Assembly: GCF_021228125.1 (NCBI RefSeq)
Contig: NZ_JAJQQS010000021.1
Span: 1-64,000, forward strand
Source: Streptomyces albireticuli
GTDB lineage: Bacteria; Actinomycetota; Actinomycetes; Streptomycetales; Streptomycetaceae
Reading direction: 5' to 3'
DNA: 64,000 nt
The translations under genes were made by a program, and so were the position numbers. Within the stretch, counting starts at the first letter, position 1, and each line of letters starts with the position of its first letter. The notes below the pieces were generated by a model that was not told where the DNA came from, ran no database searches, and was given only the letters and a program-made list of their open reading frames with translations. Positions 7,238-19,777 of this stretch are shown here, piece after piece.

Positions 7238-7311
7238 GGGGACGAGGGCTTCGGCGCCGGGCCACGGAGGTGGCGGGGCGGCGGTCCGGTGACGATGGGG
7301 GCTTGACGGGC

Positions 7312-8595
7312 ATGGGTGCCGCAACGCGCGTACGGAACCCGGGAGCCGCCGGCTCCGGGGCGGGCGTGGTCGCGCCACGGCCCGTGGCACGGGCGGTGAG
7401 CGTGGGGCCCGTGCGGCTCCAGCAGTTGGTCCTGGTCGAGGTGGCCGCCGCCCTGGTGCTGGCCGCGTGGGTCTCCGGGCAGCCGCTGCTGATGGCGCCC
7501 GCGGTGGCCGCCGCCGCGCTGCTGGTGCTGCTCGCGGTGGTGCAGCTCGGTCAGCGGCCGGTCGCGGAGTGGCTGGTGGCGGCGGTGACGTTGCGGGGGC
7601 GCGCGCGGCGCGTGGCACCCGCGGGCGCGGGCACGGATCCGGGGATCGCCCCGGTCGTGGAGTGCGAACCGGCCTTGCGGACCCTTTCCTTCACCGACCG
7701 CGAGCGCCGTGAGATCGGTCTGGTCGGCGACGGCACGTTCGTGACGGCCGTGCTCCGGCTCGACGCCGTGGACGCGCCGCTGCGGCCGCTGCGGGTGGAG
7801 AAGGCGCTGCCGCTGGCCCTGCTGCGGGACGCGATGGACGTCGACGGGATCCGGCTGGAGTCCGTCCAGGTGGTGCAGAGCACCCTGCCCTCGCCCGCGC
7901 CGCACCTGCCCGCCGAGTCCCTGGCCGCGCGGAACTACGCGCCGTTGCAGGCCCAGTCGGGCTCCCCGGCGGTGCGGATGACGTGGGTGGCGCTGAAGCT
8001 CGACCCGGAGCTGTGCCCGGAGGCCGTCGAGGCCCGGGGCGGCGGCCAAGAAGGCGCACGGCGCTGTGTGCTGCGGACGGCGGACCAGCTCGTCAGCCGG
8101 TTGCAGGGCGCGGGCTTCCGCGCGGCGCCGCTGTCCGAGGAGGAGCTGACGGCCGCGATATCCACCGCCGCGAACGTCAACCCGGTGGCCTCCGCGCAGG
8201 CCGGGCGGGCCGGCGCGCCCGTACGGCGGACGCTGGAGACCGTGCGGGCCTGGCGCTGCGACGACCGCTGGCACACGACGTATTGGGTGGCGCGCTGGCC
8301 GCAGCTGGGCCCGACGGCCACTCCCCTGCCGCAGCTGGCCGCGCTGCTCACCTCGCTGCCCGCGCTGGCGACGACGCTCAGCCTCACACTCGGCCGCGGC
8401 GGCACCCGGGACGGACGGCACGCGCCGACGATGACGGCACACGTCCGGGTGACCGGCCGCAGCTCCGACGAACTGGCCGCGACGCGGCGGGACCTGGAGC
8501 GGGCGGCGCGGGCCGTACGGGCCGGGCTGATCCGGCTCGACCACGAGCAGGTGCCCGGAGTCCTCGCCACGCTGCCCCTGGGAGGTACGCGCTGA
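7312..8595 (+). CDS. eccE: Type VII secretion protein EccE
   Basis: About 427 aa. Two adjacent membrane helices near the N-terminus (about residues 36-53 and 57-77) are followed by a soluble domain, the layout of EccE. Domain sequence such as RGRARRVAP, ERREIGLVGDGTFVTAVLRLD and the closing AGLIRLDHEQVPGVLATLPLGG fits the family. EccE stabilises the ESX membrane complex at its edge. The ATG at 7312 is preferred because the helices then start at the usual distance. An ATG at 7270 in the same frame is possible but has no better ribosome site. Its TGA overlaps the ATG of the next gene. Confidence 0.85.
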   Translation: MGAATRVRNPGAAGSGAGVVAPRPVARAVSVGPVRLQQLVLVEVAAALVLAAWVSGQPLLMAPAVAAAALLVLLAVVQLGQRPVAEWLVAAVTLRGRARRVAPAGAGTDPGIAPVVECEPALRTLSFTDRERREIGLVGDGTFVTAVLRLDAVDAPLRPLRVEKALPLALLRDAMDVDGIRLESVQVVQSTLPSPAPHLPAESLAARNYAPLQAQSGSPAVRMTWVALKLDPELCPEAVEARGGGQEGARRCVLRTADQLVSRLQGAGFRAAPLSEEELTAAISTAANVNPVASAQAGRAGAPVRRTLETVRAWRCDDRWHTTYWVARWPQLGPTATPLPQLAALLTSLPALATTLSLTLGRGGTRDGRHAPTMTAHVRVTGRSSDELAATRRDLERAARAVRAGLIRLDHEQVPGVLATLPLGGTR

Positions 8596-9383
8596 TGTCC
8601 ACCGCCTCACCGACGACCGGACCCGCGACGGGACCGGTGCCCGGCACCGGGCCCGCGACCGCTCCCGTCCCCGCGCCCGGGCGGCGGCGCTTCGGGCTCG
8701 GCCTGCTCGGCCCCCGGCGCGGGCGGCACGAACTGTCGCCCGAACAGTTCGAGGCGCTGGCCCTGCCTGTCGGGGACGACGGCGTGGTCATCGGCGCCGA
8801 TCCGCGCGAAGCGCCCGCCGTCCTCGGCCTCGCCCGGTCCACGCCGTTCGACGCGGTGCTGATCGGCGGCGCGTGGACGGCGCAGGTCATCGCCCTGCGT
8901 ACGGTCGGCACGGGCGCCCGGGTGGCCGTCGAGACCGCCCGCCGCCAGCTGTGGACCGGGCTCGCCCAGGCCGCCAACGGCGGTCAGCAGTGCGTGACCC
9001 TGCACGACGTCGGCCGGGTGCCGCCGCAGGGGCCGACGGTGCACAGCCCCGTGCTGGTGGTGCGCGACTGCGGTGTGCGCCCGCCGCGCGGCCGGGTCGT
9101 CGCCGCCCCCTGGCAGCCCGTCCTGACCCTTCTCCCCTATCTGGGGCCCGAGGCCCCCCGGTTGATGGACAGCGCGGACCTCGTCGGCGTCCAGCGGGTC
9201 TCCCCGGAGGAGGCGCGCCATCTGGGCCGGCTCCTCGGGCTCCCGCAGGAGGACGTCGACGCCCTGCCCACCTTGCGGGACGGGCTCACGCTCTGGTGCG
9301 CGGGCGGCACGCGGATGTACGTGGACACCCGCGCGACCGAGCCGGAGACGGGGCTGCTGGGCGCCGCGCGCCGGATGGACTGA
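8595..9383 (+). CDS. Unknown protein coupled to eccE
   Basis: A 262-aa protein whose ATG overlaps the eccE stop (TGATG) behind a perfect GGAGGT at 8581-8586, so it is translated with eccE. It begins with a Pro/Thr/Gly-rich stretch and a basic patch (RRRFGLGLLGPRRGR), followed by a compact alpha/beta domain (ALPVGDDGVVIGADP, AVLIGGAWTAQVIALRTVG, SPVLVVRDCG). It has no signal peptide or membrane helix and no known catalytic motif. Strict coupling to eccE suggests a cytoplasmic accessory of the secretion system. Function unknown. Confidence 0.8.
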   Translation: MSTASPTTGPATGPVPGTGPATAPVPAPGRRRFGLGLLGPRRGRHELSPEQFEALALPVGDDGVVIGADPREAPAVLGLARSTPFDAVLIGGAWTAQVIALRTVGTGARVAVETARRQLWTGLAQAANGGQQCVTLHDVGRVPPQGPTVHSPVLVVRDCGVRPPRGRVVAAPWQPVLTLLPYLGPEAPRLMDSADLVGVQRVSPEEARHLGRLLGLPQEDVDALPTLRDGLTLWCAGGTRMYVDTRATEPETGLLGAARRMD

Positions 9384-9384
9384 G

Positions 9385-9542
9385 CGGATCGGTGGGCTGA
9401 CGGATCGGTGGGCTGACGGGCTGGTGGACTGGCGGGCCGGTGCGCTCACGGGCCGCCGAGATGCCGGACCGGTGGGCTGACGGATCGCCGGGACGTCGGC
9501 CCGACGGGCGGCTCTGCCCGGCATCGGGCAGGCATCGGGCAG
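9385..9542. repeat. 16-bp tandem array in the 406-bp gap after the eccE operon
   Basis: Units of 16 bp follow the stop codon directly: CGGATCGGTGGGCTGA at 9385 and 9401 are identical, with decayed copies at 9417, 9433, 9449, 9465 and 9481. An 11-bp repeat, GCATCGGGCAG, follows twice at 9521 and 9532. The rest of the gap (9543-9789) holds no gene that I can support. It leads into the ribosome site (AGGAGG) of the ATPase gene, so it should contain that gene's promoter. Confidence 0.85.
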
Positions 9543-9789
9543 GCATGTCGCGGCCGGTCCTGCCCCTGCCACGGCATGGCCGCAGGTGACGGAGGGTACG
9601 GCCGGTGGGCTCGGGACGGGCCTGCCGCGACGATGCGTATGACGATTAGTCTTGGTGGGTGTACGTACTGGAGACCCCATACCGGGCCTCTCCCGTCGCA
9701 CAAGGGGGAACCCCGGGCGGTCGGACGACGGGAACGGTCGGGCCCGACAGGCAATTCATGGGCGCTAGACCACACCAGCAGGAGGCAAT

Positions 9790-12700
9790 GTGAGCAGCGA
9801 TCGGGACGCGATCCGCGCGGGCGGGACAGCAGCCGGCGAGGAACGGTCCGACGCGGGCCACGAGAACGAGCCCGAGCAGACGGGCGAGTTCACGATCGAC
9901 TACACCCCGCCTGCCTGGTACACGCAGAACGCGGCGGCGCCTGCGGCGGGCCCGGACGGCGGTGCCGCGAGCGGCATGGACGTGGCGGCTCCGCCGCCGC
10001 CTTCGGGTGAACCCCTCGCGGCGTTCGCCGTGCCGGCGGACCCCGAGCCCGCGGCCGCCCCTGCCCCCTCCTCGCCCTTCTCCGGTTCCGTTCCCGGCGC
10101 TGGTGCGGACTCCGCCGGCGCCGAGCCGGTCGCCGGGCCGGACCTGACCGTGGGCCAGGTCGCGGATGCCGATGGGGCGGCCCCGGCGGCTCCTTCGGTT
10201 CCGGTGGCTCCGGCCGAGGAGCCGGTGCAGGTTCACGGTGCCGCGTCCGACGCGTCCGTCGATGCCCCGGGCCTGGTCACGGACATCGCCGCGGACGCGT
10301 CCGCCGGTGCGGTGACGGACTCCGCCACCGGTTCGGCCCCGGCCGTGGAGCCCGGCCCCGCCGGGGACTCCGTGGACGCCCCGGTCCCGGCCCCCGCCAC
10401 CGACGCATTCGCGGACTCGGCGTCGGCCGTGGCGCAGGACCCCGCCGACACGGCGAGCGGTGACGCGCGTCGCGAGGGCACCATGCGGTTCTCCGCGGCC
10501 GCCCTGCACGAAGAGATCGCGAACCGCGCGTCCGACGAACCGACGAGTGCTCCGGAGGCCCTTGTCCTTCCGGACGCTCCCGACGCCCCGGAGGCCCCGG
10601 ACACCGCAGAGGCCCCTACTCCAGAGGCCCTCGCTCCGGAGGTCCCGGACGCGCGGGCGCAGTGGACCCCTCCGGCGCCACCCGCGCTGCCCCCGCTGCC
10701 CCCGGACTTCCAGCCCGCCGTCGCGCCGCGGCCCGAGGCCGCTGCGGACCCCCAGGGTGGCTACGGCTATCCGCGCCCGGACACGCAGGAAGCTCCCCCG
10801 GCGGCTCCGGCGACGACACCGGCACCGGCACCGGCACCGCAAGGCGGCTACGGCTTCCCGAACCCGGACGCACAGGAAGCCCCCGCAGCGCCCCCCGTTC
10901 AGGCTCCCGCCCCGGCATCGCAAGGCGGCTACGGCTACCCCGGCCCGGACGCACCGGCGGTCCCCACACCCGCTCCCGCCCCCGCCCCGGTTCCGCAGGG
11001 CGGCTACGGCTACCCGCGCCCCGAACTCCACGGCGCACCGGCCTCGCAGGGCGAGCCCGTACCCGGCACCGCCACGCCCGCCACCGGCTACGGCTACCCC
11101 GGCCCCGGGCAGCACACCGCGCCCGCGCCCCAGGACGCCCCGCAGCCCACGGCCCCCGCGCCGGCGGCACAGGGCGGCTACGGCTACCCCGCCCCCGAGG
11201 CGACCGGCTTCCCGGCACCGCACACCGGTCAGCCCCTGAGCGGCCCCGGCGTTCCCGATGCCCAGGGCTTCCCGCCGCCCGCCTCGCAGGAGGCTCCCAC
11301 CGCACCGAGCGAGCCCGGTCCGGCGCAGGCGGCGGCCGGCTACGGCCATCCCCGTCCCGAGCTGCCGGCTCCGCACGCCGCCACCGATGGCCCCGGCACC
11401 GGCACCGGGGCACCCGGCGGCTACGGCTATCCGCGCCCCGACGCGCAGGCCGCTCCCCCGGCCGCCGCCCACCCGCAGGCGGCGGCGCACGGCGCGCCCG
11501 CGCCCCTGCCCGCGCTCGGCCCCGTCCCCGGCGCGGCACCCGCGCCGCAGGCCGTCCCGCCGACCGGCTATCCGCAGGCCGGTCACCCCCAGGCCGGCTA
11601 TCCGCAGGCCGCCCCGGCGCCCCTCCCGCCCGCCCTCGACGGCTTCGCCGCGCAGAGCGGGCACCCGCTGCCCGGCCAGCCGACCGGTCAGGCGCACCCC
11701 GCCGCCGCGGCCCTGCCCCCGGCCGTCGGGCCCGACGCGCACGCCGCTCAGGCGCCCGCGCCGCTCCCGCCGCTCGCCGAGGCCCCGCAGGACCGGGCGT
11801 ACGACCCGCGGGCCGACGCGGCCCAGGCCGCTCCCCAGGCGACCCCGCAGGCCGACGCGCACCCCGGGATGCCCGTCGACCCGCGCGCCGGCGGCTGGCC
11901 GACCGTCTCGCCCGAGCAGCGGCAGCGGTCCGTGCACGGCGCGCCGCTCGGCTTCACCGCCTCCATGGAGCTGTCGTCGGAGCGGCTGCTGCGCAGCAAG
12001 CCCAAGCCGAAGAAGCAGATCAGCACCAACCGCTTCAAGTTCGGCGGCAAGAAGGAGGAGGCGGAGCGGCAGCGGAAGCTGGAGCTGATCCGTACGCCGG
12101 TCCTCTCCTGCTACCGCATCGCCGTCATCAGCCTCAAGGGCGGCGTCGGCAAGACGACCACGACGACGGCCCTCGGCGCGACGCTCGCGAGCGAGCGCCA
12201 GGACAAGATCCTGGCCATCGACGCCAACCCGGACGCGGGCACGCTCGGCCGCCGCGTACGCCGTGAGACCGGCGCGACGATCCGCGACCTCGTCTCCGCG
12301 ATCCCCAGCCTGCACAGCTACATGGACATCCGCCGCTACACCTCGCAGGCGCCCTCCGGACTGGAGATCATCGCCAACGACGTGGACCCGGCGGTCTCCA
12401 CCACCTTCAACGACGAGGACTACCGGCGGGCGATAGACCTCCTCGGCAAGCAGTACCCGATCATCCTCACCGACTCGGGGACGGGCCTGCTCTACAGCGC
12501 CATGCGCGGCGTCCTGGACCTCGCCGACCAGCTGATCATCGTCTCGACGCCGTCCGTCGACGGCGCGAGCAGCGCCAGCACCACGCTCGACTGGCTGCAC
12601 GCGCACGGCTACGCCGACCTCGTCTCGCGCAGTGTCACCGTCATCTCGGGGGTCCGCGAGACCGGCAAGATGATCAAGGTGGAGGACATCGTCTCCCACT

Positions 12701-13098
12701 TCGAGACGCGCTGCCGCGGGGTCGTCGTCGTGCCGTTCGACGAGCACCTGGCCACGGGTGCGGAGGTCGATCTGGAGATGATGCGGCCGAAGACGCGGGA
12801 GGCGTACTTCAACCTGTCCACGCTGGTCGCGGAGGACTTCACGCGGGCGCAGCAGCAGCGTGGGCTGTGGACCGGGGAGAATCCGCCTGCGCATCAGGCG
12901 CCGCCGGTGCCGGGGGCGTACGCGCCGGAGCAGGCGGCTCAGCCGGGGACGTACGCGCCTGAGCACGCCGCTCAGCCGGGGCCCGCGGTGTACGGGTACG
13001 ACCCGTACACGGGGCAGCCGTTGACCCAGCCGCAGCCGGGGGCCTATCCGGCGCCCGGGCAAGGCGGGTGGCCTCAGCAGTACCCGCCGCAGCAGTGA
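9790..13098 (+). CDS. EspI-like protein: long repeat region plus MinD/ParA-type ATPase
   Basis: An 1102-aa protein starting at GTG 6 bp after AGGAGG. Residues 1-310 are Ala/Pro/Asp-rich. Residues about 322-545 carry eight degenerate GGYGYP repeats spaced 20-40 residues apart, then Tyr-Pro-Gln-Ala repeats. A basic hinge (KPKPKKQ, near 740) leads to an ATPase of the MinD/ParA/SIMIBI type: deviant Walker A KGGVGKT at 783-789, [11 protein letters not shown] and IILTDSGTG. The tail repeats YAPE(Q/H)AAQPG twice. Mycobacterial EspI, linked to ESX-1, has the same plan, and synteny with eccE supports a T7SS role, perhaps ATP-responsive control. Unlike partition ParA, it has no ParB partner here. Confidence 0.8.
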
Positions 13099-13273: not shown

Positions 13274-14239
13274 CTACCGCGCGACCACCTGCGACTCGTG
13301 TGCCGTCACCAGGTCGCGCGCCCGCTTCACATCGCCCGCCATGCACAGCAGCAGCGCCTCGATGGACTCGAACTTCTCCATGCCGCGCAGGTAGGCGAGG
13401 AAGTCCACGGCCACGTGGAGGCCGTACAGGTCGAGGTCCGTGCGGTCGATGGCGTAGGCCTCGACCGTGCGCTCGGTCGCGTCGAACTGGACGTTCGTGC
13501 CGACGGAGATCGCCGCGGGCATGGCCTCCTCGCCGACGACGAGCCAGCCGGCGTAGACGCCGTCGGCCGGGATCGCGGTGTGCGGGAGGGTCTCCACGTT
13601 GGCCGTGGGGTAGCCGAGCTCGCGGCCGCGCTGCGCGCCCTGGACGACGACGCCCTCGACGCGGTGCGGGCGGCCGAGGATCTCCATGGCGCCCGCGACG
13701 TCGCCCTCGGCGACCAGCCGGCGGGTCAGCGTGGACGAGAACGGCAGCCCGCCGCCCGCCTCACCGGTCACGTACAGGTCGATGACCTCGACGCCGTAGT
13801 CGTAGGTGGCGCCGAGCTCCTTGAGGAACTCCACGTCACCGGCGGCGCGGTGGCCGAAGCGGAAGTTGGGGCCCTCGACGACCAGCTTGGCGTGCAGCTT
13901 GTCGACCAGCACCTTCACCACGAAGTCGGCGGGCGAGAGCTTCGAGAACTCCGCCGTGAACGGCAGGATCAGCACCGCGTCCACGCCCAGCTCCGCCATC
14001 AGCTCCGCACGCCGGTGGTGCGGGGCCAGCAGCGGCGGGTGGCTGCCCGGCCGGACGACCTCGCTGGGGTGCGGGTCGAAGGTCACGACGACCGAGGGCA
14101 CGCCGAGCTCCCGCGCCCGCTCCACCGCGCGGCCGATGATCAGCTGGTGCCCCCGGTGCACCCCGTCGTACGAGCCGATGGTGACGACGCTGCGCCCCCA
14201 GTCCTGGGGGATGTCCTCCAAGCCACGCCAGCGCTGCAC
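13274..14239 (-). CDS. ribF: Bifunctional riboflavin kinase / FAD synthetase RibF
   Basis: A 321-aa protein making FMN from riboflavin and then FAD. The N-terminal FMN adenylyltransferase domain has the nucleotidyl-transferase signature GSYDGVHRGH at 22-31 and VVTFDPHP. The C-terminal riboflavin kinase domain has RELGYPTANV, PADGVYAGW and DLDLYGLHVAVDFLAYLRGMEKF. Length is normal for the bacterial two-domain enzyme. It is alone on the minus strand, between the NACHT-type gene (stop 51 bp upstream) and a bidirectional terminator. The link to truB-infB is typical of actinobacteria, although a large gene intervenes here. Confidence 0.97.
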   Translation of the reverse strand: MQRWRGLEDIPQDWGRSVVTIGSYDGVHRGHQLIIGRAVERARELGVPSVVVTFDPHPSEVVRPGSHPPLLAPHHRRAELMAELGVDAVLILPFTAEFSKLSPADFVVKVLVDKLHAKLVVEGPNFRFGHRAAGDVEFLKELGATYDYGVEVIDLYVTGEAGGGLPFSSTLTRRLVAEGDVAGAMEILGRPHRVEGVVVQGAQRGRELGYPTANVETLPHTAIPADGVYAGWLVVGEEAMPAAISVGTNVQFDATERTVEAYAIDRTDLDLYGLHVAVDFLAYLRGMEKFESIEALLLCMAGDVKRARDLVTAHESQVVAR

Positions 14240-14290
14240 TGTGCCCGCTCCTCGCCCGAACCCGAACTTTTGTCTGTCGATTACGCAGGT

Positions 14291-17200
14291 CTAAGAGTGC
14301 CATGCCGGTTCGCGCCGCTCAGCATCGGCCGGTCCACCGACTGTCAGATCTTCGTCATCTTCTTCCGCGGTCAGCCTGATCCGCGCCTGCGGGCCCACCA
14401 CGACGGCCCACTGCGCGGGCGCGGAGCGCAGCCAGCCGCGCACCTGGCCGCCGAACACGGGGGCCTCACGGGCCAGCTGGGTCAGCCTCCGGTCGAAGCA
14501 CGCCGCCCCTTCCGCGCTGCGGGCCATGAGCAGGCCGATGCGGTGCACCAGGTCGCGGGTGCGGGCCTCGGCCCGCTCGGCCGCGCCCGTGGCCACCGCG
14601 CGCAGCAGGGCGTCGAGGACGGTGATGTCCCGCTCGAAGGGGCCGTACTGCTCGCGCTCCAGCAGCACCTCCAGGAGCTCCTGGCGCAGGGGCCGCGAGA
14701 GGGGGGTGCCGGGGGCGGCGAGGACGGGCGCGAGGGCACGGCGGACCTGGGCGGAGCGGTTGCCCAGCAGCTGGACGACGAGCGGGAAGAGGACGGACCG
14801 TGCGGCGGGGCCCGCCTCCAGGCGCCGGTCCACGAAGGCCGCCGCGTGGCCGGCGCCCTCGGGGCGGTGCTCGACGTGCTCCCGGACGAGCGAGGCGGCG
14901 CGGCGGGCCAGGGCGGGGGTGGTGACGTCGGCGAGGGCGGCGAGGACCTCGCCGGGGCCGTCCCCCGGCTCGTACAGCCGGGCCCGGAAGACGGCGAGGA
15001 CGGGCTCGGGGTGGGTGGAGAGCGCGGCGGCGAGCGCGCGGGCGGGGACGTGGGCGTCGCCGGCGGCGAAGCGGACGAGGGCCTGCGGGAGGTATTTGCC
15101 GCGGGTCTCGTCGTCGCGGACGAGGAGGCAGAGCGCCGTGCCGTGCAGGGCGCCCTCGGCGGGCCGGGCCAGCAGGGCCAGCGCGGAGTAGCGCAGCAGC
15201 TCGCGGTCGGCGGTGGTGGTGACGTGGGGGGCCGTCTTGAGGGCGTAGGCGGCCGCGGCGACATGGCGTTCGACGCGGTCGTCGTGCGCCCAGCGGTCGA
15301 CGGCCCGGCAGATCGCGGACGGCTCGTCCTCGGCGAGGGCGACCAGGAGCTCGTCGGCCCGGGGGTGGCCCGCGTCGACGAGGGACTCGGCGAGGTCGTC
15401 GACGGCGTGGTGGCGGTGGGTGTGCAGGAGGACCTGGGCGGCGGTGGAGACCGTGGGGCGCACGCAGTCGCCGTAGGGCGGGCCCTGGAGGGGGCGCTCG
15501 TCGGCGAACCAGCGGCACAGGAGGGTCTGCGCGGCGCAGGGGTCCTCGGCGAGGACGGTGGCCACGGTGGGCAGGAAGCGGTCGCTCTGCGGCGGGTGGG
15601 CGGCGTGGTGCGCCTGCGGTTCGAGCTGCTGGGTCTGGGCGGCGCCGGGCGGCGGGCCGTCGGCGGGCACCAGCAGCCGGAGCAGGTCCAGGCGGTCGGC
15701 GAGGCCGAGGGGCAGCCGGAGCCAGAACCAGGGGCCGAACTCGGCGAGGCCGCCGAGGGAGCCCGCGGGGTCGCTGTCGAAGCCGCCGATGGCGAGCGAG
15801 CGGGTGGTCAGCCGCTCGGCCAGCAGCCGCAGGGTGTCCAGGTAAGGGGTGGCGTCGGGGACCCGCAGCAGCGTTTCGCCGAGGAGGTGCGCGGCCCACC
15901 AGGCGGGGTCGGGGAGCGCCGGGACGTGCTCGTCGGCCTCGGCGGACGGGCGGGGCGCGAGGGAGAGGGCCTCGGCGGCGTGGATCAGCCCGTCGAGGCG
16001 GGTGGCGAGCTCCTCGGGGCCGGAGCGGCGGCCGAGGAGCAGCAGCGCCTGAAGGACGGGGCCGATGCGGTGGCGCGGTACGGGCACGGGCTTGGGCCGC
16101 TCCTTGCCGCGCGCCCCGGCGCGGGTGCGGCGGCGGGCGGCCGCCGTTCTGGGCGGCCTGCTGGAGCCGGGCGGCGGCGGGACGTGGCCCTCGGGCGCGG
16201 GGCCGCCGCCCGGCCGGGACGGCAGCCGGGGCTCCGTCTCGGCGGGCGGGCCCTCCGGCTCGTACCAGCGGTGGACGAGGGTGTGCAGGGCGGCGTCGAG
16301 GTCGAGGTGCGCGCCTTGCAGCCAGTCGGCGAACTCCTCGTGACCGAAGCGGTAGCCCGTGCCGGCCGGGACGAGCATCCCTTCGGTGAGGACGGCGGAG
16401 GCCCAGCCGTTGCGCCAGGGGAACAGCTCCTCGAACGCCTCGCGGTCCAGCTCTCCCTGGCCCGGCCCCAGGCACCGCCGGGCGGCTTCGTGGAGCTGGC
16501 CCGCCACCCGGGCGGCCAGCCGGCGAACGGCGGTGCCGCGCAGCGGCGGCCTGCGGTCCGCCGAGAGCCTTACGGCGATCCGGAGGCAGATCAGGTCGAG
16601 GTAGGCGGCGAAGACACCCCAGCGGTCGGGGGGCGGGGCGGAGCCGTCCTCGCTCCCGTCGGGGACGTCTCCCCCGGCCGCCCAGGCCCGTCCCCCGTGG
16701 ACCGGGAGGGCCGCCCGGACCTCGGCGAGGAGGCGCAGGGCGAGCGGGTGGGCGGCGTCGGCCTCCTGGATCGCCTCGGCGGGGACGCCGTAGACGGCGC
16801 GGGCCTGGGCGGCCTGGCAGGGCGTGAGGTCGGTGAGCCGGACGCAGGCCGGCAGGCCGCGGTGGACGGCCGTGTCCAGGGGGGTGTGGAGGGCGGCGCG
16901 CGGGAAGAGGGCTCCGGCGGTCTCCCAGTGCTCCGGGCGGCAGGCGACGACGAGCCGGGCCGCCGTACTGTCCAGCCATTCGGCCGTCGCCGCCGTCCAC
17001 GACGGCAGGGCGTGGGCGAGGACGGGCGGCACCTCCTCGGGGCCGTCGAGGACGACGAGGAGCGGCCGGCCGACCCGCTGGGCGAGGGCGGCGACGGCTT
17101 CCGGGGTGGCCTCCGCCGGGTCGCCGACCGTGCCCGCGGCGCCCGCCGAGGCGGTGACGATCCGGCCGGCCGCCTCCAGGGCACGGGCCACGGCGTCCCG

Positions 17201-18481
17201 CACGCTCTCGTCGCCGTCCTCCAGGTCGGCGCCGCGCAGCCAGATCGTGGGCGCGGGCTCCGGGCCCCGGGCGCGGCGGGTGGCGAGCGCGCCGAGCTCG
17301 GTGGTGCGGCCCGTGCCGGGGCCGCCGACGAGGCCGAGGACCCGGGCCCCGGGCGGGCGGCCTCCCTCCGGGTCCTCCGCGCTCTCCGCTCCCGCCCCGT
17401 CCTCCTCCGGTGCGTCGTCCGGGGGGACCTCGCCGGGCGTGGCGCCCGTGTCGCCCTGTACGGGGCTTCCGGGGGCGTACGAGGCGTCGGCGCCGCGCCC
17501 GTACGGCTCCTCCGGCTCGTACGGCCCCTCAGCACCGTACGAGCCCTCCGAGCCGTACGGGCCTGCCACCCCGTACGGCCCCTCAGCGCCGTACGCAGCG
17601 GCGTCGGGGCCGCCGCAGGTCTCCGCGGGCAGGCCGGGCGCCGGGCCCGCCGCGACGGTCACCTCGCCGTGGACGTCGTGGTCGAGCCCGCAGGGCACCC
17701 GCTCGCGCGGGCGCCGGCCGGTGTCCAGGAAACGGGCGAATTCGCGGGCGACCTCGGGGCGGTCGACGGGGTCGCGCCAGACGCGGGAGGTGGTGACGGG
17801 GCCGAGCGAGGTCGCCGTGAGCTGGAGGGCGCCCGCGAGGTTGAGGTCGGGGCCGTAGGCCGGGACGGTGGCGCCGTTGTGTTCCAGGAGGCGGGCCAGG
17901 GGGCCGTCCGGGCAGGCCAGGGCGGCGGCCCGGAGGGGGATGGCGAAGCCGCCGGAGCGGCGCTCGGCGTGCAGCGCGGTACCGAGGACGGCGACGACGG
18001 TGCCGGTGCGGGCGTCGAGGACGGGGCCGCCCGTGGCCTCCTCGCCCAGGCGCAGGCCGTCCCGCTCGCCGACGGAGAGCTCCACGGCGGCGTCGAGCAG
18101 ATGGAAGCGGTCGGTGGCGGTGTACGTGACCAGGGCCTCGCCGACGATCCGGGCGTTCTGCCAGCGGCCGGCCCGCAGCCGGACCTCCGCGCCGTCCTCC
18201 AGATACTCCGCGGCGGCGACGGGGAGCGGCTGGACGCCGAGGCCCTCGGTCCGCACCAGCGCGAGATCGGATCCCGGCAGCGGGGTGACGGCCTCGGCCC
18301 CGACGAGGCAGGTGCGCTCCCCGGGCGCGAGCAGGACCAGGCGGGCGAGGCCGTCGACCGCCTCATGGCTTGTGATCATGGTGCCGCGGTCGTCCGCGAG
18401 GAAACCCGTGCCGCGCGGACGCCCGGCGAGGTCTCTGATGCGCACCAAGTTCTCGTCCGCATCGGTCCGTCGACCGCTCAT
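14291..18481 (-). CDS. Trypsin-like domain fused to a NACHT/STAND-type NTPase
   Basis: A 1396-aa protein. Residues 1-190 have a trypsin/HtrA-like fold pattern: His39 (ITSHEAVDG), Asp72 (GSDLALV) and the loop EEATGGPVLD, where Thr150 stands at the place of the catalytic Ser. A linker at about 297-330 repeats GPYG. The NTPase has Walker A GGPGTGRTT (386-394) and Walker B LLVVLDG (474-480). The remaining 900 residues are Ala/Leu/Arg-rich helical repeats. The ATG at 18481 has a strong GGGGAGG site; a GTG at 18505 does not. Such protease-NTPase fusions are known in signalling and in defence, but no target can be read here. Confidence 0.75.
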   Translation of the reverse strand: MSGRRTDADENLVRIRDLAGRPRGTGFLADDRGTMITSHEAVDGLARLVLLAPGERTCLVGAEAVTPLPGSDLALVRTEGLGVQPLPVAAAEYLEDGAEVRLRAGRWQNARIVGEALVTYTATDRFHLLDAAVELSVGERDGLRLGEEATGGPVLDARTGTVVAVLGTALHAERRSGGFAIPLRAAALACPDGPLARLLEHNGATVPAYGPDLNLAGALQLTATSLGPVTTSRVWRDPVDRPEVAREFARFLDTGRRPRERVPCGLDHDVHGEVTVAAGPAPGLPAETCGGPDAAAYGAEGPYGVAGPYGSEGSYGAEGPYEPEEPYGRGADASYAPGSPVQGDTGATPGEVPPDDAPEEDGAGAESAEDPEGGRPPGARVLGLVGGPGTGRTTELGALATRRARGPEPAPTIWLRGADLEDGDESVRDAVARALEAAGRIVTASAGAAGTVGDPAEATPEAVAALAQRVGRPLLVVLDGPEEVPPVLAHALPSWTAATAEWLDSTAARLVVACRPEHWETAGALFPRAALHTPLDTAVHRGLPACVRLTDLTPCQAAQARAVYGVPAEAIQEADAAHPLALRLLAEVRAALPVHGGRAWAAGGDVPDGSEDGSAPPPDRWGVFAAYLDLICLRIAVRLSADRRPPLRGTAVRRLAARVAGQLHEAARRCLGPGQGELDREAFEELFPWRNGWASAVLTEGMLVPAGTGYRFGHEEFADWLQGAHLDLDAALHTLVHRWYEPEGPPAETEPRLPSRPGGGPAPEGHVPPPPGSSRPPRTAAARRRTRAGARGKERPKPVPVPRHRIGPVLQALLLLGRRSGPEELATRLDGLIHAAEALSLAPRPSAEADEHVPALPDPAWWAAHLLGETLLRVPDATPYLDTLRLLAERLTTRSLAIGGFDSDPAGSLGGLAEFGPWFWLRLPLGLADRLDLLRLLVPADGPPPGAAQTQQLEPQAHHAAHPPQSDRFLPTVATVLAEDPCAAQTLLCRWFADERPLQGPPYGDCVRPTVSTAAQVLLHTHRHHAVDDLAESLVDAGHPRADELLVALAEDEPSAICRAVDRWAHDDRVERHVAAAAYALKTAPHVTTTADRELLRYSALALLARPAEGALHGTALCLLVRDDETRGKYLPQALVRFAAGDAHVPARALAAALSTHPEPVLAVFRARLYEPGDGPGEVLAALADVTTPALARRAASLVREHVEHRPEGAGHAAAFVDRRLEAGPAARSVLFPLVVQLLGNRSAQVRRALAPVLAAPGTPLSRPLRQELLEVLLEREQYGPFERDITVLDALLRAVATGAAERAEARTRDLVHRIGLLMARSAEGAACFDRRLTQLAREAPVFGGQVRGWLRSAPAQWAVVVGPQARIRLTAEEDDEDLTVGGPADAERREPAWHS

Positions 18482-18651
18482 CCGCCGAACCTCCCCGCCG
18501 TGCACTTACTGCGACGGTAGGCAGCGGATGATCGGCAGGACAGATCGCACCAGGAACGCGCCCCCTTCCACCCCCTCGGTTCACTCCGAGCGCCTGCCCA
18601 ATGGGGTGAATCCTCAGCACGGGATGGATAGAGAACCGGAGGGAGGGGGAT

Positions 18652-18809: not shown

Positions 18810-18845
18810 ACGCCCCCGGGCGGTCGGAAGACCGCCCGGGGGCGT
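18810..18845 (-). terminator. Perfect 16-bp terminator after truB
   Basis: ACGCCCCCGGGCGGTC pairs perfectly with its complement around GGAA, 30 bp beyond the truB stop. It marks the end of the long rimP-to-truB transcription unit. Confidence 0.8.
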
Positions 18846-18874: not shown

Positions 18875-19777
18875 TCAGCCGAAGACGGCCAGGCTCTTGG
18901 CCCGCCCGCCCTGGTTCTCGATCAGCACCAGGAAGCGCCCGTCCGGACCGAAGACCGCTATCGGGCCCTTGGTCTCGAAGAGCGGCATCCTGACCCGGAC
19001 GCCGTTGGCGAGCAGGCGCGCCTGCTCCTCCGTGACGTCCCAGCGCGTGAAGGCCGCCTCGGCCGCCTCCGCCACGGGCATGATCGTCAGCTCCTCCTGG
19101 AGCTGGTCCAGCGTGCGGGCCTCGCCCAGCCCGTACGGGCCGACGCGGGTGCGCCGCAGCGCCGTCAGATGGCCGCCGACGCCCGTGTCCGCGCCCAGGT
19201 CGCGGGCGAGGGCACGGACGTACGTACCGGAGGAGCAGACGACGGAGACCAGCAGGTCCTGCACCGGGGTGCCGTCCGCCGCCTCCGCCGGGTGCACCGC
19301 GTGCACGGCGAAGGAGGAGACCGTCACCGGACGGGCCGGGATCTCGAAGTCCTCGCCCTCACGGGCCCGCGCGTACGACCGCTTGCCGTCGATCTTGATC
19401 GCGCTGACCTTCGACGGCACCTGCATGATGTCGCCGGTGAGCTTGGCCACGCCCGCGTCGATCGCCTCGCGGGTGACGCCGGAGGCGTCGGCGGACGAGG
19501 TGATCTCGCCCTCCGCGTCGTCCGTCACGGTGTTCTGGCCGAGCCGGATCGTCGCGACGTACTCCTTCTCGGTCAGCGCGAGGTGACCGAGCAGCTTGGT
19601 CGCCCGCTCGATCCCGAGGACGAGCACACCGGTCGCCATCGGGTCGAGCGTCCCCGCGTGGCCGACGCGCCGGGTCCGCGCGATGCCGCGCATCTTCGCG
19701 ACGACGTCGTGCGAGGTGAAACCGGCCGGCTTGTCGACGATGACCAGGCCGTCCGGCGGGGTCTCCTTGTGCTTCAT
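18875..19777 (-). CDS. truB: tRNA pseudouridine-55 synthase TruB
   Basis: A 300-aa enzyme converting U55 to pseudouridine in the T-loop of tRNAs. The TruB signature GHAGTLDPMATG is at 39-50 with catalytic Asp45. VDKPAGFTSHDVV at 14-26, KSYARARE-type KRSYARARE and the C-terminal PUA-like domain (ARLLANGVRVR) are present. The start ATG overlaps the rbfA stop (ATGA), so the two are translated together. Last gene of the infB superoperon, followed by a strong terminator. Confidence 0.97.
   Translation of the reverse strand: MKHKETPPDGLVIVDKPAGFTSHDVVAKMRGIARTRRVGHAGTLDPMATGVLVLGIERATKLLGHLALTEKEYVATIRLGQNTVTDDAEGEITSSADASGVTREAIDAGVAKLTGDIMQVPSKVSAIKIDGKRSYARAREGEDFEIPARPVTVSSFAVHAVHPAEAADGTPVQDLLVSVVCSSGTYVRALARDLGADTGVGGHLTALRRTRVGPYGLGEARTLDQLQEELTIMPVAEAAEAAFTRWDVTEEQARLLANGVRVRMPLFETKGPIAVFGPDGRFLVLIENQGGRAKSLAVFG

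Follow-up and report, generated by a model that had tools for sequence, protein, structure and literature searches.

A pseudoprotease–NACHT-like protein maintained between truB and ribF in Streptomycetaceae

A 64,000-nucleotide stretch of the Streptomyces albireticuli genome (contig NZ_JAJQQS010000021.1, positions 1 to 64,000; hereafter the window) carries at positions 14291-18481 a minus-strand gene encoding a protein in which a protease-like domain is followed by a NACHT-like nucleotide-binding module and a helical C-terminal tail. Sequence alignment and structure prediction indicate that the whole family of this protein is a pseudoprotease family of HtrA-like predicted fold from which the catalytic chemistry has been lost. 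We consider it probable, with appreciable room for doubt, that the protein is a cytoplasmic, single-copy, vertically inherited STAND protein resembling the NOD-like receptors (NLRs), which has a non-catalytic N-terminal domain and serves as a housekeeping nucleotide switch. An earlier sequence-only reading had described the gene as a trypsin–NACHT fusion having threonine in place of the catalytic serine; its observations were confirmed in part and its interpretation was supported in part.

Results

The protease-like domain

Scanning of species-level genomes yielded 165 confirmed relatives; the 80 best were retained, and individual loci among them are cited by L numbers. Counts of loci given below refer to these 80, whereas column counts refer to all 81 rows (the 80 loci plus the window protein), with gapped rows set aside for each column. 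Identity over the best segment was 50-91%, far above chance, and the genera were Streptomyces, Streptantibioticus, Actinacidiphila or '[Kitasatospora] papulosa'. Nine loci were left out of alignments A1-A3, and the tree was a quick, midpoint-rooted one of 73 rows, 8 partial or frameshifted loci having been left out.

AlphaFold2 modelling of residues 1-205 from 72 rows gave a domain (mean predicted local distance difference test score, pLDDT, 89.3; predicted template modelling score, pTM, 0.90) that both Foldseek and VIA-align group with the HtrA/Deg proteases. By VIA-align the model has a chymotrypsin-type fold, superimposing on Mycobacterium tuberculosis HtrA (7w22) with Z 19.3 over 180 residues (root-mean-square deviation, rmsd, 3.4) and on MamO, an HtrA-type pseudoprotease of Magnetospirillum (5hma), with Z 18.5 over 177 residues (rmsd 2.8). 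By sequence the nearest solved relative was HhoA (E 4.7e-06 with the single sequence, 5.2e-07 by profile). NCBIfam gave no useful match, and no active trypsin-type protease that could serve as a local yardstick was found by motif in the fetched loci.

The sequence-only reading held that His39 and Asp72 of the triad were kept and that Thr150, within EATGGP, stood at the serine position. All three residues are present, and two of the assignments stand: Thr150 aligns with the serine of SGGP in HhoA and Asp72 with the aspartate of DLAV. The histidine assignment does not. The family motif TSHEAV aligns without gaps on TNAHVV of HhoA, TNYHVI of Deg1 and TNYHVV of Thermotoga maritima HtrA, and therefore it is Glu40 that would occupy the catalytic histidine position, with His39 shifted by one onto the Ala or Tyr of the proteases. 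The AlphaFold2 model, in which a strand (residues 34-38) runs into a helical turn (39-41), is consistent with this register.

The His-Asp-Ser triad is absent from the window protein, which has Glu40-Asp72-Thr150, and none of the 76 rows has histidine at position 40. Even when His39 is counted as the catalytic residue, His, Asp and Ser occur together in only two of 76 rows (L016 and L079), neither of which also has Gly148. The nucleophile position is Ala in 22, Thr in 18, Val in 17, Ile in 11 and Ser in 9 of 77 rows, such that Ala, Val or Ile is found in 50 of them. It ranks as the 15th most variable of 172 positions in the domain, its five states need at least 10 changes on the tree (Ser arising in two places), and the adjoining Gly151 and Pro153 never vary. 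At the oxyanion position, 148, only 4 of 77 rows have glycine, each of them paired with Ala150; the window protein has glutamate there, as do 17 of the 18 Thr150 rows, with tyrosine in the other. Asp72 and Thr150 co-occur in 15 rows. The tree places 14 of its 15 Thr rows in one clade, and in two rows of that clade Asn replaces Asp72. Orthologues with Ser150 and normal activity had been named as evidence that would overturn the sequence-only reading; orthologues with Ser150 exist (the nine rows above), but none has the catalytic histidine.

Constraint on the domain does not follow the hydroxyl group. Median within-clade ratios of nonsynonymous to synonymous substitution (dN/dS; NG86 method, pairs not independent) for the domain were 0.27 for the Thr clade, 0.31 for Ala, 0.24 for Val/Ile, 0.23 for Val, and 0.12 and 0.30 for the two Ser groups. 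Hence, the domain is held under constraint with or without a hydroxyl at position 150. The gene as a whole is under purifying selection: dN/dS was 0.22 against the nearest relative (0.11 within the protease-like domain) and 0.29-0.44 against three others, and 142 columns were invariant across 71 rows.

As the catalytic histidine position is always Glu or Gln and position 150 mostly lacks a hydroxyl, the aligned family is best read as a pseudoprotease in which threonine is no nucleophile, contrary to one suggestion of the sequence-only reading. Its other suggestion, a pseudoprotease sensor, was right in kind, and more fully so than the evidence behind it could show. The invariance of His39 beside a dead site would point to a structural or binding role for that residue.

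Retention of the fold and of selective constraint together with loss of the catalytic residues places the domain with the MamO-like trypsin-fold pseudoproteases. MamO (5hma/5hm9) likewise has an HtrA-like fold and a retained aspartate, and its E223 and T225 correspond to E148 and T150 here, with threonine at the nucleophile position and glutamate at that of the oxyanion glycine (PMC4794232). In the MamO structure the active conformation is sterically barred; the T225A mutation caused no defect, and the defects of H116A and D149A were temperature-dependent (PMC4794232). Two differences are evident. MamO keeps its catalytic histidine, H116, whereas the window protein has Glu40, and MamO functions in magnetosome formation and metal binding and is not described there as a fusion to a nucleoside triphosphatase (NTPase) (PMC4794232), unlike the NACHT fusion reported here.

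The NACHT-like module, linker and tail

The central and C-terminal parts were modelled in full length with orthologue L074 (1139 residues; pLDDT 89.6, pTM 0.75), residues 208-727 of which correspond to residues 208-933 of the window protein. VIA-align placed L074 residues 208-727 on NLRP3 (7alv) with Z 18.6 (399 aligned, rmsd 4.1) and residues 208-752 on NOD2 (5irn) with Z 17.3 (399 aligned, rmsd 4.6), giving a fold composed of nucleotide-binding domain (NBD), helical domain 1 (HD1), winged-helix domain (WHD) and helical domain 2 (HD2). These fold comparisons support the sequence-only view of a protease-fold domain joined to a STAND/NACHT NTPase and a helical tail. That view had put the helical tail at 900 residues: the region is indeed helical in the prediction, but its first part is HD1, WHD and HD2 of the NACHT module.

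Both Walker motifs named earlier are present, but the earlier reading did not mention that the Walker A lysine is replaced by arginine. Position 392 is Arg in 76 of 77 rows and Pro in one, and the consensus GxxxxGK[ST] is not matched. The Walker B acidic residues and the sensor-1-like arginine are invariant and the WHD histidine nearly so (Table 1), and alignment thus describes a nucleotide pocket that is under strong constraint with an altered P-loop. Of a set of 60 members, 34 gave a Pfam NACHT match at E ≤ 1, the strongest at 3.6e-05. Since the defining Walker A lysine is absent, we call the protein a NACHT-like variant and not a standard NACHT member.

Animal NLRs carry a death-fold domain N-terminally and leucine-rich repeats C-terminally. 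NLRP3 and NOD2 share with the window protein the order NBD-HD1-WHD-HD2, a DGxxE-type Walker B motif, the sensor-1-like arginine and the WHD histidine, which by analogy would contact the nucleotide. They differ in that here the P-loop lysine has become arginine, a pseudoprotease stands at the N terminus and a HEAT-like solenoid at the C terminus. In NLRP3 the K232A mutation reduced hydrolysis to about a third and largely abolished signalling, and sensor mutants were impaired as well (PMC9633759). A histidine substitution within the NACHT domain of bNACHT25, H506L, was hyperactive (PMC12169576).

The linker that lies between the pseudoprotease and the NACHT core contains GPYG- and EGPY-like repeats and is highly variable among species. 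Foldseek matches of the C-terminal solenoid include importin-beta/Kap95 and NLRP9, and by analogy the solenoid is likely a ligand sensor. Weak PADLOC matches were obtained to OloA (E 7.5e-4 on residues 1015-1295) and, among 60 members, to mad8 in 16 (best 1.4e-4) and Avs2 in one. Avs or bNACHT structures were not among the fold matches listed, which excludes nothing. A membrane or secreted protein was considered and rejected: the highest 19-residue hydropathy mean was 1.87, and none of the 81 rows reached 1.9.

Inheritance

The sequence-only reading held that the gene interrupts the usual adjacency of truB and ribF, which is misleading, since truB–gene–ribF is the standing order. An upstream truB was found in 73 of the 80 loci, a downstream ribF in 78 and the two together in 72, with the strand shared in every case, and all 72 loci holding both flanks have this order. 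The remaining eight stop at contig ends. The window's own genome gave one match to the gene, which is therefore single copy.

Evolutionary distances of the protein correlated with those of TruB plus RibF over the 71 rows having all three genes (Mantel r 0.674, with 0 of 999 permutations as high). The tree of the protein contained 45 supported splits and that of the flanking genes 24; 22 were shared and none was in conflict. Annotated phage records contained no relative, none of 20 matches to two peptide patterns in viral contigs was confirmed as a relative, and 72,556 plasmid records yielded one 103-residue fragment, located on a 2.8-Mb replicon. At a lax threshold two plasmid trypsin-like peptidases matched the N-terminal part (27% identity, E 6e-3 and 2e-2). 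The patchy, mobile distribution expected of antiphage bNACHT and Avs systems is not seen, as judged from the loci carrying the gene. Our best reading is that the gene is inherited vertically as an ordinary core-genome chromosomal gene of the Streptomycetaceae.

Two loci were unusual. In Actinacidiphila glaucinigra (L035:4612-6000) about 1.4 kb lies between truB and the gene, more than in the other loci, and the S. triculaminicus copy (L061:9270-10496) is split over two frames, because the gene is broken or the sequence contains an error.

Gene boundaries and neighbours

The gene is a single open frame of 1396 codons plus stop with its ATG at 18481 and its stop at 14291-14293 (Table 1). GGGGAGG, resembling a ribosome-binding site (RBS), lies 8 bases upstream of the ATG; an in-frame GTG at 18505 is also a possible start. 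A plus-strand frame of 1740 residues at 13298-18520 was taken to be a high-GC artefact because the family lies on the minus strand.

Table 1 Features of the gene and its flanks in the window.
Feature	Position	Strand	Basis
Whole gene, pseudoprotease-NACHT-solenoid protein, 1396 residues	14291..18481	-	Open frame, RBS-like site, 80 related loci, purifying selection
HtrA/S1C-like chymotrypsin-fold domain with degenerate active site (predicted), residues 12-190	17912..18448	-	Pfam Trypsin_2, AlphaFold2, VIA
His39, one residue ahead of the catalytic His position	18365..18367	-	His in 76 of 76 rows
Glu40, at the catalytic His position by alignment	18362..18364	-	Glu 51, Gln 25 of 76
Asp72, at the catalytic Asp position	18266..18268	-	Gly 48, Asp 25, Ala 2, Asn 2 of 77
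EATGGP: Glu148 at the oxyanion-Gly position, Thr150 at the nucleophile position	18023..18040 (Thr150 18032-18034)	-	Alignments
NACHT module (NBD-HD1-WHD-HD2) with preceding helices and linker, residues ~208-933	15683..17860	-	L074 model on NLRP3
Low-complexity linker, residues 241-372, Gly/Pro/Tyr/Glu-rich	17366..17761	-	Columns filled in a mean of 13 of 81 rows
Walker A-like GGPGTGRT, residues 386-393 (Arg392 at 17306-17308)	17303..17326	-	Alignment
Walker B LVVLDGPEE, residues 475-483	17033..17059	-	D479, E482 and E483 in 80 of 80 rows
CRPE, residues 514-517, with sensor-1-like Arg515	16931..16942	-	Arg515 in 80 of 80 rows
Winged-helix motif GYRFGHEE, residues 709-716	16334..16357	-	His714 in 78 of 80 rows; family pattern GYRFxHEE
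C-terminal helical (HEAT/ARM-like) solenoid, residues ~934-1374	14360..15682	-	L074 AlphaFold2 helices, Foldseek
truB, upstream neighbour	18875..19777	-	Pfam TruB_N
Perfect 15-bp GC hairpin past truB, probably a terminator separating truB from the gene	18811..18844	-	Folding
ribF, downstream neighbour, 51 bp past the stop of the gene	13274..14239	-	Pfam FAD_syn and Flavokinase

Upstream, rbfA and truB share the strand of the gene. The 81-nt stretch that includes the hairpin following truB folds at -53 kcal/mol (z -5.17), and strong hairpins of differing sequence follow truB in three of four other loci folded (L002, L009 and L022), though not in the stretch of L035 folded. Given these hairpins, the gene and ribF probably form a transcription unit of their own. 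The window hairpin lacks a U tract, and a promoter and terminator scan gave no prediction, which is weak information in this GC-rich genome.

Next to ribF, positions 7270-13098 and 590-1867 encode EccE, a MinD/ParA-like ATPase whose long N-terminal part is proline-rich, and a subtilisin-type peptidase; these genes probably belong to a type VII secretion cluster. A link of the gene to them was rejected, since within the stretch covered by the fetched loci it is not conserved: of the 74 loci that extend more than 2.5 kb past ribF, 22 have the MinD-like gene downstream.

The S. coelicolor truB is SCO5709 (PMC6344877) and its ribF SCO5711 (PMC9282665), so SCO5710 is probably the orthologue, judged by position alone. 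The portions of the literature searched gave no mention of SCO5710.

Lysine content

The window protein contains 4 lysine and 139 arginine residues and its longest lysine-free run is 792 residues. Across the 76 rows longer than 1050 residues (among them the window protein and a small number of partial or frameshifted copies) the median is 3 lysines, and 9 rows have none. This scarcity is partly explained by base composition. In 620 kb of the same genome, 13 of 268 crudely called genes are equally lysine-poor (1 of the 35 encoding at least 700 residues), and a fit to GC content at first and second codon positions predicts 0.38% lysine versus the 0.29% seen. Lysine deserts covering at least half of the length are reported for 35.4% of the S. 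coelicolor sequences analysed (PMC10665810). Only the 792-residue run stands out, the next longest being 571. Lysine avoidance as an adaptation was considered and is not shown, given the comparably lysine-poor genes of this genome and a compositional fit close to the value seen.

Discussion

The residues needed for cutting have been lost, yet the gene has been inherited as an ordinary chromosomal gene between housekeeping genes, and so the protein probably acts as a switch in regulation and not as an enzyme. We envision that the N-terminal pseudoprotease domain most likely binds a peptide or partner protein, whereas the central NACHT module would bind nucleotide and switch between closed and open states, as the conserved Walker B motif, sensor-1-like arginine and WHD histidine suggest. 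The P-loop arginine probably slows or abolishes hydrolysis, in which case the switch may act by nucleotide binding or exchange rather than by turnover. By analogy with NLRs, activation would lead to oligomers whose clustered pseudoprotease domains are offered to a partner. The vertical inheritance suggests a role in a conserved Streptomyces cellular process rather than in defence against particular phages.

Several observations weigh against a conserved NLR-like pseudoprotease switch. On the protease-like side, the Pfam Trypsin_2 match (residues 24-165, E 7.6e-06) scored 27.2 bits, just below the curated cut-off of 27.6, and the register that puts Glu40 at the catalytic histidine position comes from sequence alignment, not from superposed structures. 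On the NACHT side, the window protein scored 14.3 bits with the Pfam model versus a cut-off of 26.7, a profile of this part run against PDB sequences returned no NLR but just P-loop and chance matches, and the full-length structural model is that of orthologue L074 and not of the window protein. Individual relatives depart from the pattern: the P-loop of L070 lacks Arg as well as Lys, L010 and L041 lack the WHD histidine, and in L018, L021 and L025 (Streptantibioticus and a relative) the match ends at residues 1264-1297 of the window protein, the end of the solenoid apparently being missing. Replacement of lysine by arginine keeps the charge, and thus hydrolysis may survive. Finally, the test for conflict between trees used supported splits only; when all 68 splits were compared, 38 were shared.

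The best surviving alternative, which we nevertheless regard as unlikely, is an antiphage NLR: its solenoid would sense phage and its NACHT module oligomerise, with the protease-like domain serving as a decoy or working through a partner. The plan of N-terminal domain, central NACHT/STAND and C-terminal sensor-like part is that of the bNACHT and Avs antiphage proteins (PMC12169576 for bNACHT), inactive peptidase domains are frequent in the predicted conflict systems of multicellular bacteria (PMC7159879), and the weak PADLOC matches may point the same way. Unlike those systems, however, the protein has no active effector, lies at a core locus and hardly occurs in the plasmid, phage and viral records searched. 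As core synteny and trees congruent with those of truB and ribF are unlike mobile defence genes, an antiphage role, which the sequence-only reading had raised, is less likely than a conserved cellular one and is not favoured.

More doubtful still is a regulator of its neighbours, acting on flavin synthesis through ribF or on tRNA and ribosome maturation through truB and rbfA. Its fixed place between truB and ribF and the short distance to ribF in the window are what such a regulator would have, but strong hairpins part the gene from truB, and adjacency alone shows no function. That the gene is a degenerating relic of a former protease–STAND fusion, with little function left, is very improbable: the active site has decayed, the linker is variable and one copy is split over two frames, but the dN/dS values, the invariant columns and the unchanged place of the gene argue against decay. 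Least credible of all, to the point of being negligible, is that the window protein and its clade are active proteases with Thr150 for a nucleophile; here the pairing of Asp72 with Thr150 under constraint is set against a histidine position always occupied by Glu or Gln, a glutamate at the oxyanion position, loss of Asp72 in two clade members, equal constraint on clades lacking the hydroxyl and the inactive site of MamO, which has the same Glu/Thr pair.

Fusions of this kind are already known: Kaur et al. 2020 describe trypsin domains joined to STAND proteins, and in the predicted conflict systems that they treat inactive peptidases are frequent (PMC7159879). In the iSTAND/VMAP proteins of their MoxR-vWA ternary systems a trypsin-like domain likewise lies N-terminal to a degenerate STAND module, and iSTAND is reported to be almost absent from actinobacteria (PMC7159879). 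Unlike those proteins, the window protein has intact Walker B and sensor residues and no MoxR or vWA gene among its immediate neighbours; a scan of 10 window frames, 4 of them without a family match, gave none. The literature searched, in the portions available, contained no paper describing this protein, nor one on a core-genome version altered in both active site and P-loop.

A tentative, rather speculative extension is that a former conflict-type protease–NLR became a domesticated, non-enzymatic receptor within the core genome of the Streptomycetaceae, its triad dismantled, its P-loop arginine fixed and its lysine nearly purged. The histidine position would have been fixed as Glu or Gln while the nucleophile position was left free to drift. 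If so, the protein would be a long-lived nucleotide-binding sensor, lysine-poor and thus hard to tag for the Pup-proteasome. Bacterial NLR-like proteins have been studied mainly as antiphage systems, and the protein described here, if our interpretation is true, would be a naturally occurring example of immune-receptor architecture put to use in housekeeping signalling, and would serve as a model of a NACHT switch that works without the Walker A lysine. It also offers a testable mechanism for a conserved orphan gene, which in S. coelicolor is probably, by its position, SCO5710.

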